Below are positions 5,258 to 17,817 of a stretch of DNA of 32,940 nucleotides, one piece after another (the stretch's first letter is position 1; each line of letters begins with the position of its first letter). The position numbers were made by a program, and so were the translations under genes. The DNA is taken from positions 1 to 32,940 of the forward strand of contig JADZEO010000068.1 in NCBI GenBank assembly GCA_020850475.1, given 5' to 3'. This DNA is from Bdellovibrionales bacterium. Lineage in GTDB: Bacteria; Bdellovibrionota; Bdellovibrionia; Bdellovibrionales; UBA1609. The notes under the pieces were generated by a model. It was not told the DNA's origin. It did no database searches and saw only the letters and a program-made list of their open reading frames with translations.

Positions 5258-7678
5258 TTAAACTTTGAGTGGCCCCACCAGAACTTGGCGAGGCTTGCTG
5301 CCGTTGGCCGGACCAACCACGCCCTCGCTCTCAAAAACTTCAATTAAGCGCGCGGCCCTCGGGTAACCGATGCGGAAGCGTCGCTGAATGAGCGATGCGC
5401 TCACTTCCTTAAGGCTCGACACATAGGCAAGAATCTCGTCATAGCGATCGTCGCCGTAGTCATCACCCTCGAGATCAAAGGATTCACCGCCCAACTCAAA
5501 TCCTCCGCCACTTCCCTCGATAATTTTCATCGCCAGAGGATCGAAATCGGGCTCGCCCTGTGCTTCCCAGTGTTTGGTAATGCTGGCAATTTCGGACTCG
5601 CTCAAATAGGCCCCATGATGGCGCTCAGGCTTGGCCACTCCCGGAGCCAAGTAAAGCATGTCTCCACGGGTTAAGAGTCGCTCCGCCCCGCTCTCATCAA
5701 GAATGATTCGGGAATCCATTTTGCTCGCGACCTTAAAGCTGACTCGACCCGGGATATTGGTTTTGATGAGGCCCGTGACCACATCCTTGCGCGGGCTTTG
5801 CATTGCCAAGATCAAATGAATTCCACAGGCGCGAGCCATTTGCGCCAAACGCACAACCACGTGCTCAACTCCGGCTTTATCGACCGCCATAAGATCGCCA
5901 AACTCCTCGATGACGATGACGATATAGGGTTGAGCGGTATAGTAATAGTCGTCCAGGCGGGCTGCGCCCTCGAGCTGAGCGTGGTAGGTCTCGTGCTCCT
6001 CGAGCTCTTTTTTACTAAATTTGCCAACGATTTCGTTAAAGCCTTCGAGTCCGCGGGCGCCAAATTTCGACATCGAGCGATACCGTTTTTCCATTTCGCG
6101 AATCGCCCACTTAAGCGCTGACACGGCTTTTTGTGGCTCTCGAATCGGCGGCATTAACAAATGCGGACAGTGGCTGAAGGCCGCAAGATCCACTTGCTTG
6201 GGATCCACCAAAATCAATCTCAGGGTCTTGGGCGAATGGCGAAAGAGCAGGCCCACGATGAGGCTTACGACAAACACCGATTTCCCGGAGCCGGTCGAAC
6301 CTGCCACCAACATGTGCGGCATCCGTCGCAAATCCACAACCTTCGGTTCGCCGTCGGCCTGACGCCCAAGCACAACCGGCAAGCGCATCTCTTCTTCCCA
6401 AAAATCCTCTTGCGCCAATATGTCTTTTAGGTAAACCGCTTCGCGGTTTTGATTCGAGGTTTCGATTCCAACAACATCGCGGCCGGGAATGGGCGCAATA
6501 ATCCGCACTGACTCGCTGCTCAGGGCAAGCGACAGATCATCCGCCAGATCGGTGATCTTGCTAATCTTGACGTCGGCCGCCGGCTTGAATTCAAACAAGG
6601 TAATGGCGGGCCCCGGCTTAATGCCCACCACTGATCCTCGCACCGAAAATTGCGCTAGCTTATCTACCAAGATCTTGGCTTTCGCTTTGACCTCTCGCTC
6701 ATCAACTGAGCCCTCGGTTGCCGGCGGGTCATTGAGCATTGAGATTTTCGGGAGCGACCAGTTTTCAATTCGCTCAGTCTTTTTTATTCGGCGAATATTG
6801 CGGGACTCCGCTCCGGCGGGAGCTTTTCGTCGCATCAGGAACCCGCTCAGCGTGGGTCCGCCTTCTTCTGCGTCCGCCTCGTCTTCATCGTCCTCGAATC
6901 GACCCTCCGCGACGGCCGCGGCCACTTTAGTTTCTGGCTTGGGTGCTCCAACGGGCGGTTCGCCCTCAAGCGTTTTTCTCAGCGAAAACCGCGCCACCCG
7001 CGGCGCGTCCGCGGTAGGCGATTGGTAAACCTGAATCGGAATTTCGGTAGCGTGCTTGCTGAAAATTAAACTTTCGCGCAAGAAGTTGCTGACCCTAGAA
7101 ATCCACCCCGGCACCACCGTTAACTGGCTGGCTCCACCTTTGGCCAAATCGAGGGGCGTGCGCACCAACTCCGACACCGTCCGCTCAGAATAAAAAACCA
7201 CCAGAACTGCGGCGGCGGTCCAGAGAATGACGGCGACTCCCGCAAAATTGAAAATTCCTACGAGTCCCTTGGAAACCATCAGGCCAACAATTCCCCCCGC
7301 CGGAACTTGTCCCGAGAAAAATCGGGTCTCAGGAAAGTACAGGCCGACCAGCGCACAACTCGTAACAAATAAAAGTGTCGCCCACAGCCAACGCAGACGG
7401 CTCGGGTCTCCTTCTCGATCTAAAAAGTTGATTGCGGCCTTGCGGATTGCGACAACTACCAATAACCAAGCCGATAAGCCAAGCCCCTGGTAAAACAGGT
7501 CCGCCAAAAAGGAGCCGAAGTATCCGCAGTAGTTGAGCGCCCGGACATTTCGTCCAATCGAATTAAATGATGGGTCCGTCGGATTATAGCTGGCGAGGGA
7601 AAGCGCGATAAAGACCCCTGCCGCCAACCAAACCAAGCCAATGATATCTCGTCGAAACTTTTTGAATAGGCGATTCAT
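5258..7678 (-). CDS. ftsK: DNA translocase FtsK
   Basis: An 806-residue septal DNA pump that clears chromosome ends from the closing septum and supports dimer resolution. About four transmembrane helices lie in the first 190 residues. A short acidic linker (about 255-300) replaces the long Pro/Gln linker of E. coli, then come the alpha and beta motor domains. Walker A is VAGSTGSGKS near residue 457. The Walker B strand reads VIVIEEFGDLM where DE is more usual. LILAMQSPRKDV and the nearby FKVASKMDSR match FtsK/SpoIIIE. The last 65 residues, with SLIQRRFRIGYPRAARLIE, are the winged-helix gamma domain that reads KOPS-type sequences. The ATG start has only a weak ribosome site. Confidence 0.96.
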   Translation of the reverse strand: MNRLFKKFRRDIIGLVWLAAGVFIALSLASYNPTDPSFNSIGRNVRALNYCGYFGSFLADLFYQGLGLSAWLLVVVAIRKAAINFLDREGDPSRLRWLWATLLFVTSCALVGLYFPETRFFSGQVPAGGIVGLMVSKGLVGIFNFAGVAVILWTAAAVLVVFYSERTVSELVRTPLDLAKGGASQLTVVPGWISRVSNFLRESLIFSKHATEIPIQVYQSPTADAPRVARFSLRKTLEGEPPVGAPKPETKVAAAVAEGRFEDDEDEADAEEGGPTLSGFLMRRKAPAGAESRNIRRIKKTERIENWSLPKISMLNDPPATEGSVDEREVKAKAKILVDKLAQFSVRGSVVGIKPGPAITLFEFKPAADVKISKITDLADDLSLALSSESVRIIAPIPGRDVVGIETSNQNREAVYLKDILAQEDFWEEEMRLPVVLGRQADGEPKVVDLRRMPHMLVAGSTGSGKSVFVVSLIVGLLFRHSPKTLRLILVDPKQVDLAAFSHCPHLLMPPIREPQKAVSALKWAIREMEKRYRSMSKFGARGLEGFNEIVGKFSKKELEEHETYHAQLEGAARLDDYYYTAQPYIVIVIEEFGDLMAVDKAGVEHVVVRLAQMARACGIHLILAMQSPRKDVVTGLIKTNIPGRVSFKVASKMDSRIILDESGAERLLTRGDMLYLAPGVAKPERHHGAYLSESEIASITKHWEAQGEPDFDPLAMKIIEGSGGGFELGGESFDLEGDDYGDDRYDEILAYVSSLKEVSASLIQRRFRIGYPRAARLIEVFESEGVVGPANGSKPRQVLVGPLKV

Positions 7679-8944: not shown

Positions 8945-8998
8945 ATCGATCTATGATCGCCCCAGGGCAGCTTTGACTTGGATAAACGAGGAACTGCG

Positions 8999-10462
8999 AT
9001 GATGGACAAGAAAGTCCCCCCTCAAAACATGGACGCTGAAAAATCGATTCTCGGTGGCCTTATGGCCGATCCTGAGGTTTGGAACGACATTGCCGACCAA
9101 ATCGCCGAAGAAGACTTCTATAAACCGGCGCACCGCAAAGTTTTCGCGGCTATTCGTGAGTTGGGGCGCAAGGGGCTGCCGGCCGACCTCGTTACCGTTG
9201 GCAATTCGCTAATGGAAAATGGCGACTTTGAGTTGGTTGGAGGATCATCCTATTTAGTCGAGCTTTTTGAGGCGACTCCCACCGCTGCAAATATCAGCCA
9301 CTGGTGCAAAATCGTGCGCGAAAAGGCCCTCTTGCGCAAAGTCATTACTTCGAGCCAAGGGTTTATCGAGCGCGCCTTTGATCAGGACTTCGAAAATGTA
9401 GATGGCTTTCTGAATTCAATTGAATCTGAGGTCTTCGCTCTGGCCGAGAAAAAGGAGGCCAGCGGCCTTATTCAAGCCAATGACATCGTCAAAGCCAGCC
9501 TCGAGCGCCTTGAAGAGCTTTATTCTAAGAAACTGGCCGTAACGGGGATTCCCACGGGCTGGCCCGACATGGACACCCTAACGAGCGGATTTCAGCCGGG
9601 TGAGTTGATCATTATTGCCGCCCGTCCTTCGATGGGAAAAACAGCTTTTTGTTTGAATGTGGCCGGCAATGCTGCTTTGAGTGAGAAGAAGACGGTCGCG
9701 TTTTTCTCGGTGGAGATGGATCGACAATCGGTCTTACTGAGGATGCTCGCAAGCGCCTCTAAGGTTTCGCTGACCGACCTTCGCGTGGGTCACATTCCCG
9801 ATTCCGCCTGGCCTAAGCTCATTAACGCTGCCGCTTCGCTGAGCGAGACCAACCTCTTTATTGACGACACCTCGGGCATCAGCCCCTATGAAATCTTGGC
9901 CAAGTGCCGACGCCTAAAAGCCAAGCACGGCCTCGACATGATCATCATCGACTACCTTCAGCTGATGAGTCTTAAACAACGGGTCGAAAGTCGTGAGCGC
10001 GAGGTCTCGGAAATTTCGCGAACGCTCAAGGCGATCGCCAAAGAGCTGAAGGTTCCCGTAATTGCACTTGCTCAGCTTAACCGCGGCGTTGAGGGTCGTC
10101 AGAATCGACGCCCGATGCTTTCTGACTTGCGCGAATCGGGTTCAATCGAGCAAGACGCTGACGTTATTATGATGCTTTACCGAGAAGATTATTACGAAAA
10201 AGACAATCCAGATATTCGCGGTATTGCCGAGATTATTGTGGCCAAACAACGTAACGGCCCCACCGACACCGTCAAACTGTTGTGGAAGCCTGAGTTTGGT
10301 CAATTCGTCAGTTTTGAAGAGCAGCAGCGCGGGCCGAACCCGCCTCCACCGTCAGCCCCGCACCCCGGGTCTGGTCGCCCTTCCGGAAACCCAGGCTGGG
10401 CGGGCAAATCCGCCGATGGGCCATCAAAACCGCGTAACTTTGCTCCGGGCGCCGAGCTTTAA
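8999..10462 (+). CDS. dnaB: Replicative DNA helicase DnaB
   Basis: The hexameric helicase that unwinds the replication fork and recruits primase. The 487-residue product starts MMDKKVPPQNMDAEKSILGG; the ATG at 8999 is chosen because GAGG sits 7 bases upstream, whereas the longer reading frame needs a TTG. The N-terminal helical domain (about 10-110) is followed by the RecA-like motor: Walker A ARPSMGKTAF near 208, Walker B DMIIIDYLQLM near 315, and the arginine-rich LSDLRESGSIEQDADV region. The last 45 residues are a Pro/Gly-rich tail, longer than in E. coli and probably disordered. No intein is present. The gene stands alone, with promoter-like and palindromic DNA upstream. Confidence 0.97.
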   Translation: MMDKKVPPQNMDAEKSILGGLMADPEVWNDIADQIAEEDFYKPAHRKVFAAIRELGRKGLPADLVTVGNSLMENGDFELVGGSSYLVELFEATPTAANISHWCKIVREKALLRKVITSSQGFIERAFDQDFENVDGFLNSIESEVFALAEKKEASGLIQANDIVKASLERLEELYSKKLAVTGIPTGWPDMDTLTSGFQPGELIIIAARPSMGKTAFCLNVAGNAALSEKKTVAFFSVEMDRQSVLLRMLASASKVSLTDLRVGHIPDSAWPKLINAAASLSETNLFIDDTSGISPYEILAKCRRLKAKHGLDMIIIDYLQLMSLKQRVESREREVSEISRTLKAIAKELKVPVIALAQLNRGVEGRQNRRPMLSDLRESGSIEQDADVIMMLYREDYYEKDNPDIRGIAEIIVAKQRNGPTDTVKLLWKPEFGQFVSFEEQQRGPNPPPPSAPHPGSGRPSGNPGWAGKSADGPSKPRNFAPGAEL

Positions 10463-16428: not shown

Positions 16429-16551
16429 GTGAACCTCCACTGTTCAGTTCCAAAATGGTACCAACAACGGACAGCTCCACGAACCAAGATCGCCTCGGGC
16501 GGGCTCAAATTAGACTAAGGTAACGACAGCACTCTCTCGACGCACCTTTGC

Positions 16552-16806
16552 TCAGCCCGTTTTTTTTGAATCATCAAAGTTAAATGACAATTGCTCGCCG
16601 CTTTTGGGTGTCCCTGCAGGAGCTTTCGCTTGGGGTGCCGGGGTCGCCTGCAACGGAGCTGTCGGGGGCTCAGGTTTGAGTGGGGCAAGTTTATTTTCCG
16701 AGAGATTGGCCTGGTGGATGAGGTGACGAACAAACGCCTTCTGAGATTCAAGTGGCGCTTCCGGGTTAAGCCCAAGCTCCCGCAGCAAGTCTCCAATGTG
16801 GCGCAT
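16552..16806 (-). CDS. Small protein with Pro/Ala linker and C-terminal QLSFNF motif
   Basis: An 84-residue protein. Residues 1-40 look helical (MRHIGDLLRELGLNPEAP, then KAFVRHLIHQANL); residues 41-68 are a Pro/Ala/Lys linker; the end is EQLSFNFDDSKKTG. QLSFNF resembles the short beta-sliding-clamp binding motif (QLxLxL/F, as in Hda), but one residue differs and short motifs occur by chance. The start at 16806 has GGAGG five bases before it, which rules against the overlapping frame that begins at 16811. Upstream lies the DnaA-box-like cluster; downstream the secreted protease. I do not recognise the family. Link to replication is a hypothesis. Confidence 0.65.
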   Translation of the reverse strand: MRHIGDLLRELGLNPEAPLESQKAFVRHLIHQANLSENKLAPLKPEPPTAPLQATPAPQAKAPAGTPKSGEQLSFNFDDSKKTG

Positions 16807-16929
16807 AACATCCTCCAGTATGAATCAATCGGTATTTGCTGCGTCTCATTGAAGAAAACCTTGGTGAAAAACTCGATGCCGTTCCCGCTCTAAAGACTAG
16901 CTTCGGGGGCAATCGGGTTAATGAGTGTT

Positions 16930-16969
16930 TGTGGAAAAGTCTGAGGATAAGGCTGTGATTTGTGGAAAA
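16930..16969 (-). promoter_or_regulatory. Cluster of DnaA-box-like 9-mers
   Basis: Read on the minus strand, TTTTCCACA occurs at 16961-16969 and again at 16930-16938, with TTATCCTCA (one base from TTATCCACA) between them at 16942-16950. The two exact copies fit the DnaA-box consensus TT(A/T)TNCACA, share one orientation and start 31 bases apart, about three helical turns. They lie in the 240-bp gap upstream of the QLSFNF gene, beside AT-rich DNA. Confidence 0.5.
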
Positions 16970-16990
16970 ACCTGTGAGTTGATGTCAATT

Positions 16991-17041
16991 ACTCCCTAAT
17001 TATTGGGTCTCTCTAGATTAAAGAACCTATCGCTAGGGAGT
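16991..17041. repeat. 8-bp inverted repeat with 35-bp loop downstream of sdhB
   Basis: ACTCCCTA (16991-16998) and TAGGGAGT (17034-17041) are perfect complements. The sequence between is AT-rich. On the plus strand the right arm runs into TTTTGC; on the minus strand the same left arm could instead form CCTA-GCGA-TAGG, so two alternative structures are possible just after the sdhB stop. Confidence 0.45.
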
Positions 17042-17046
17042 TTTGC

Positions 17047-17817
17047 TTATCTTTCTAAAAGTGATGCCTTTAAGAATTCGCGATTCAGTATGGCGATATG
17101 TTCCAAACTTATTTCTTTTGGGCACGCAGCGGCACAGGCGCCCGTGTTAGTACACCCGCCAAAACCTTCGGCGTCCATCTGATGCACCATTGCAAGCGCG
17201 CGCTTTTCTCGCTCCGCCTCTCCCTGCGGTAAGAGTGCTAGGTGGGCAACCTTGGCACCAACAAACAGGCTTGCTGAGGCGTTCTTGCAGGCGGCAACAC
17301 AAGCTCCACAGCCAATGCACGCCGCCGCCAAAAAGGCCCGGTCTGCCTTGTCTTTGGGAACCGGCAAACAGTTCGCATCCTGTGCTGTCCCCGTCGCTGT
17401 GGAAACAAATCCTCCGGCCTGAATCACTCGATCAAGAGCTGAGCGGTCAACGACGAGATCGCGAACCACTGGAAATGCTCCCGCCCGAAAGGGCTCCACC
17501 GTAACTGAATCGCCATCTTTGAATCGCCGCATGTGTAACTGACAAGTGGTCGTGGCGCCGTCGGGGCCATGGGGATTGCCATTGATGACCAACGAACACA
17601 TCCCACAGATGCCCTCGCGGCAGTCATGATCAAACTCGACGGGCTCTTCGCCCTTTTTCACCAGCTCTTCGTTAACCACGTCGAGCATTTCCAAAAAAGA
17701 CGCTTCGGTCGAAATGCCCTTCACGTCGTAATCCATGAAGTAGCCTTTGTCCTTTGCGTTCTTTTGGCGCCAAAGTTTCAGTTTAAGATTCAATTTTGAT
17801 TTGGAAGCTCCACCCAC
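17047..17817 (-). CDS. sdhB: Succinate dehydrogenase / fumarate reductase iron-sulfur subunit
   Basis: A 256-residue electron-transfer subunit carrying electrons from SdhA flavin to quinone. The [2Fe-2S] site is [15 protein letters not shown] with a later Cys in [11 protein letters not shown]; the [4Fe-4S] site is [11 protein letters not shown]; the [3Fe-4S] site is [15 protein letters not shown], ending with the CP common to the family. It follows sdhA by 12 bases as the last gene of the operon. The start [18 protein letters not shown] agrees with B-type enzymes. Downstream lie the inverted repeat and DnaA-box-like region, with no strong terminator. Confidence 0.96.

Follow-up and report, generated by a model that had tools for sequence, protein, structure and literature searches.

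The 240-bp gap between sdhB and a gene for an 84-aa protein in a Bdellovibrionales genome contains a compact element made of two double DnaA boxes and two NrdR-box-like palindromes. We read this element, with a probability of about 0.5, as an origin-proximal DnaA-binding control site (acting by titration or in a datA/DARS-like way) coupled to NrdR, on the grounds of its conserved sequence and position. The window analyzed here is the whole 32,940-nt stretch of DNA, contig C68 of a 3.91-Mb genome in 175 contigs. An initial annotation of the gap had offered three options for its DnaA boxes: a DnaA-controlled promoter, a DnaA-titrating site, or part of an origin. The titrating site appears to be the best supported of the three, and the NrdR-box-like palindrome pair is an addition that was not foreseen.

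Layout of the element in the sdhB gap

In the window, both genes flanking the gap lie on the minus strand. Read on this strand, the element begins 8 bp past the sdhB stop codon and runs from palindrome 1 over palindrome 2 to a weak-strong pair of DnaA boxes and a second weak-strong pair. The GC content of the gap is 43%, compared to 53% for the window. The features are as follows:

17047 to 17817, minus strand: sdhB, succinate dehydrogenase iron-sulfur subunit (Pfam Fer2_3; NCBIfam NF005746, 421.9 bits, cut-off 243)
17024 to 17039, minus strand: palindrome 1, NrdR-box-like, TCCCTAGCGATAGGTT, with the core CTANNNNTAG kept at 56-58 bp ahead of strong box C in 22 of 23 elements measured
16993 to 17008, minus strand: palindrome 2, NrdR-box-like, ACCCAATAATTAGGGA, centre 31 bp from palindrome 1
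16973 to 16981, minus strand: weak DnaA box B of double box 1, CAACTCACA, 3 bp from strong box C; an equivalent nnnCCACAG is kept at -12 in relatives
16961 to 16969, minus strand: strong DnaA box C of double box 1, TTTTCCACA, the reference point of the conserved unit
16942 to 16950, minus strand: weak DnaA box of double box 2, TTATCCTCA, at +19; G018, G060, and G029 also have a +19 box, weak or strong
16930 to 16938, minus strand: strong DnaA box of double box 2, TTTTCCACA, at +31; a +31 box also in G018, G060, and G029
16552 to 16806, minus strand: gene of the 84-aa protein, with a conserved N-terminal region and the C-terminal end QLSFNF; relatives in 26 of the 47 family genomes

The two copies of TTTTCCACA and the single TTATCCTCA described initially, all in one orientation within 40 bp and with the strong boxes starting 31 bases apart, were confirmed in coordinates and orientation. 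A fourth, weak box (CAACTCACA) had been overlooked; exactly 3 bp separate it from strong box C. Both pairs represent “double DnaA boxes,” with 3-bp spacing within each. The inverted repeat reported beside the boxes was also found (16991-17010 / 17022-17041) and resolves into the two NrdR-box-like palindromes, 31 bp apart.

Conservation of the element and its association with nrdR

The family comprises 47 genomes, and five of these (G044, G061, G065, G041, and G067) had no sdhB match at the cutoff and their locus was not recovered. At least one exact TTWTCCACA is present in 27 of the 42 recovered loci of the same family and absent in 15. These tallies include G064, for which 170 bp were available, and G068, which was read from the side of the small gene. 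Loss of the boxes in close relatives, named initially as a refuting outcome, applies to these 15 loci, of which 14 belong to genomes without detected nrdR.

Alignment of the relatives on the strong box showed that they share a second box, 12 bp upstream of it, and the box-like TTATnaACA at position -22; in most genomes, a CTANNNNTAG palindrome also precedes the strong box by 56-58 bp. A composite pattern gave 40 matches in the 47 genomes vs. 17 for the reversed control; 25 of the 40 fell at the sdhB locus, in 22 genomes, and the other 15 are at about the control level. Among 140 genomes of the order, a stricter pattern was present in 8, with a single occurrence in each and always at the sdhB locus (control, 0).

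The arrangement extends beyond the family. G029 (family f6) has boxes at 0/+19/+31 after sdhB, identical to the arrangement in the window, and five genomes of family f10 (G038, G033, G053, G080, and G076) have the 12-bp box pair after sdhB. G082 has one inverted strong box, and G056 and G084 lack an exact box. The G029 array lies on contig C97 (L343), 214-254 bp from the reverse-complement start, with CTAGATATAG adjoining and no small gene seen. The strong pair was absent from the sampled genomes of f8 (5), f5 (5), f7 (2), f2 (2), and f3, f4, and f9 (1 each).

NrdR of E. coli is described as binding two 16-bp palindromes that are 15 bp apart (PMC12176259). An NrdR operator should have two palindromes of 16 bp with some 15-16 bp between them, and the pair in the window has this layout: the palindrome centres are 31 bp apart, equal to a 15-bp gap, and about 32 bp apart in several relatives. 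Scored with an assumed NrdR consensus, the window pair reached p = 0.023 vs. shuffles, and several relatives were individually not significant with the same consensus; the window palindromes are degenerate. Because pair scans with the assumed consensus gave weak results in most genomes, a new motif was derived from the elements. Among the ribonucleotide reductase loci of nrdR genomes, 9 of 41 had this motif upstream at p ≤ 0.01 when the tested genus was left out, compared to 0 of 11 in genomes without nrdR; most ribonucleotide reductase loci have no motif site. The 52 upstream regions scored are fewer than the matches listed, and the G068 locus was omitted, its upstream stretch being too short. 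The ribonucleotide reductase locus of G000 itself, on contig C35, is among the nine positives. A strong NrdR-like pair can be seen there (L210; TGACGATATATGGTGA / TCACTAGATCTAGGGG, 32 bp apart), about 100 bp upstream of the ribonucleotide reductase frame. Counting the bare palindrome genome-wide with 2 mismatches allowed was uninformative (678 sites vs. 2004 in the reversed control).

The element was present at 25 of the 26 recovered loci in genomes with nrdR, compared to 2 of 16 in genomes without it (Fisher 3e-8, a value that ignores shared descent). G023, 82% complete, was counted as lacking nrdR, yet keeps the element. On an sdhB tree, which omits G016, G064, and G043 (sdhB pattern mismatch) as well as G068, the element changes 5 times and nrdR 4 times; independent co-losses are therefore few, and no sign test can reach significance. 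The link to nrdR amounts to 2 to 4 independent pairs. There is no ribonucleotide reductase operon at the locus, where the neighbors are sdhB and the small gene. The palindromes are probably NrdR boxes.

The neighboring gene, the origin, and chance

The 84-aa protein belongs to a family of 62-98 aa with an N-terminal MKKIGDLMxELGF...AFxxxLI and a C-terminal end of the QLSFDF/QLDLF/QLSLF type. Such ends, like the QLSFNF of the 84-aa protein, resemble a beta-clamp-binding motif. Searches with the small protein gave no domain that counts in Pfam-A or NCBIfam and no PDB relative. In many genomes of the order, genes of this family lie near sdhB and at a distance of roughly 25 kb from dnaA.

Control of this gene is a serious rival to the reading as a DnaA control site, if on the whole an unlikely one: the element would be the regulatory region of the 84-aa gene, and DnaA and NrdR would control a clamp-motif protein that feeds back on replication. 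In the window, as in most family genomes that have the small gene, the element is located upstream of this gene, and the two co-occur (21/26 vs. 6/16, p = 0.008). The element also stays beside the small gene in G004, G010, G047, and G062, four genomes in which sdhB is at a distance of 0.8-4.1 kb or on a different contig, and the E. coli nrdA promoter likewise combines a double DnaA box with NrdR boxes. However, the element follows sdhB without the small gene in 7 genomes, with another same-strand gene in its place in G002 and G009 and a convergent gene in G008, G014, G019, G021, and G066. The entire unit is inverted in G018, G060, and G045 (for G045, whose small gene is at a contig edge, the contig with sdhB was used to read the element). 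The small gene, for its part, is retained in f8, f5, G049, G003, and G046, where the element is missing, and a simple scan of 16500-17100 for promoters and terminators came back empty. Because of its retention without the small gene, its position between convergent genes, and its inversion, the element is probably not simply the promoter of the small gene. The DnaA-controlled promoter proposed initially is accordingly possible as a part of the picture and probably incomplete as an account of an element that 7 genomes keep without the gene and 3 have inverted. Both roles may be combined in a DnaA/NrdR site that also affects its neighbor.

In many genomes, the stretch that leads from the boxes to the small gene contains a recurring TTAACC motif (seen by eye; about 16909-16925 in the window), and the motif is found ahead of the gene even where DnaA boxes are lacking. 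This motif may form part of the small gene's own promoter.

An unannotated RNA or very short peptide driven by the element, with or without the small gene, would account for its retention beside convergent genes. We consider this improbable, as opposed to a DnaA control site, given that the comparison with Rfam gave no meaningful match, that downstream of the boxes no conserved sequence was seen outside the element, and that the unit is inverted in one genus.

The position of the element relative to the replication origin was derived from gene order. The dnaA gene of this genome lies on contig C82 (9033-10445), where the dnaA-dnaN intergenic region is ordinary and contains boxes as well as a CTACTATTACTACT trio and AT-rich DNA. 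Synteny with G040 places the left end of C82 directly next to the right end of the window. The element would thus be on the dnaN side of oriC at about 25 kb, a distance inferred from this synteny with dnaA and oriC on another contig. In 12 genomes with both on one contig, element and dnaA are 21.5-29 kb apart. The distance to oriC may merely mirror conserved gene order. The window also encodes an FtsK-type DNA translocase (5258-7678, minus strand) and a replicative DnaB helicase (8978-10462, plus strand), both located beyond the element as seen from oriC.

That the element is a second or relocated replication origin is very improbable. A comparison of 16500-17100 with 39 genomes, its own included, gave as the sole outside DNA match the dnaA-dnaN intergenic region of G005, where the box cluster alone was covered (45 bp, 85% identity). 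Against this likeness stand the ordinary oriC-like region already present at dnaA on C82 and the sdhB gap itself, in which no DnaA-trio was seen. The GC-skew check suggested in the initial annotation also speaks against an origin at the locus: in the relative G024, used for this purpose with the window genome being fragmented, one contig holds both loci, and the minimum of the cumulative GC skew, at 454 kb, coincides with dnaA (453.3-454.7 kb) rather than with the element (477.9 kb). On gene context, the absent trio, and the skew of this relative, we rejected the origin, and with it the option that the boxes are part of one. A DnaA-trio run, CTACTACTACTACT, is strongly conserved among the dnaA-dnaN regions of the order that were displayed (L003-L032, most of 30).

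By numbers within the window, the boxes are a modest signal. TTWTNCACA has 4 matches in the window vs. 2.35 in shuffles, and the expectation of 0.015 matches given for the gap was recomputed as 0.014 with equal base use. Genome-wide, exact TTWTCCACA occurs at 66 sites, compared to 77 with the reversed sequence as a control. No more than two pairs are closer than 100 bp, the sdhB-gap pair (31 bp), which is the tightest of the genome, and a pair beside dnaA on C82 (92 bp). The initial annotation had proposed such an all-genome scan, and its result, with only this one other pair, excludes that the genome has many clusters of equal density. Under simulated uniform placement, a same-strand pair within 31 bp arises anywhere in the genome with a chance of 0.018. 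The spacing statistic by itself is moderate, and the comparison with relatives is stronger; it is because of the conservation in relatives that the cluster rises above chance. A functionless chance cluster, for which the mild excess of two matches within the window could be cited, is hardly credible: the boxes are kept at 27 of the 42 family loci recovered, with fixed spacing, and are found at the same place in two other families, which effectively refutes it.

A candidate DnaA control locus near the origin

For the DnaA control site coupled to NrdR, we propose the following mechanism. DnaA would dock on the two double boxes, most likely cooperatively, and NrdR on the neighboring pair of palindromes. 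At about 25 kb from oriC, the locus would be duplicated early, soon after initiation, and the duplicated locus would then hold DnaA or alter its nucleotide state in the manner of datA/DARS. NrdR bound alongside would modulate the effect on DnaA with the dATP/ATP balance. We infer the actual binding of DnaA and NrdR, and the effect on DnaA, from the sites and their conservation. More specifically, the element could be an origin-near switch in which the dATP/ATP sensor NrdR, sitting beside double boxes and needing no downstream gene, sets the amount of active DnaA that is free, with initiation only when dNTP supply allows; this version is tentative, and we think it rather doubtful. The absence of the element from f8 and several other families sampled counts against the control-site reading.

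E. coli DnaA is described as preferring double boxes with gaps of 2-3 bp (PMC11317965). The same source presents the E. coli loci datA, DARS1, and DARS2 as non-coding loci with DnaA boxes, double boxes among them, that lie outside the origin (PMC11317965), and the sdhB-gap cluster likewise consists of non-coding DnaA boxes outside oriC that form double boxes with a gap in this range. It further resembles datA/DARS in being single copy, and the sdhB-gap element persists without a downstream gene. Where datA and DARS carry IHF/Fis sites, the sdhB gap may have its NrdR-like boxes instead. The element is presumably also much closer to oriC than datA. It would constitute a DnaA-box control locus in a new form, with NrdR-like boxes added, and we assign it neither to datA nor to DARS.

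The nrdAB promoter of E. coli, as far as described in the sources cited, shares the combination of a double DnaA box and NrdR boxes (PMC11317965; PMC12176259). In contrast to that promoter, the element is found without a ribonucleotide reductase gene and, in 5 genomes, between convergent genes. E. coli DnaA boxes are reported to gather near oriC, which is taken to favor titration (PMC12371093). The sdhB-gap element shares with this enrichment the presence of DnaA boxes near oriC, where they are duplicated early; it differs as one compact conserved site, the E. coli enrichment being described as diffuse, over a tenth of the chromosome (PMC12371093). The strong boxes match the consensus NN(A/T)TCCACA given for oriC of Bdellovibrio bacteriovorus (PMC5124646). 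Unlike that origin, the element is not located between dnaA and dnaN, no DnaA-trio was seen, and no unwinding element was identified.

The terms datA, DARS, Hda, RIDA, titration, and NrdR do not appear in the text of a 2023 review of Bdellovibrio replication (PMC11318664), and none of the papers searched mentions NrdR together with Bdellovibrio. A control site at the sdhB gap would extend origin-proximal DnaA control loci to a Bdellovibrionales family for which we found none described. How dNTP supply and the start of replication are linked is a long-standing question. If the reading is true, a compact site that joins a dATP/ATP sensor to the initiator, outside ribonucleotide reductase promoters, would make this link directly testable.
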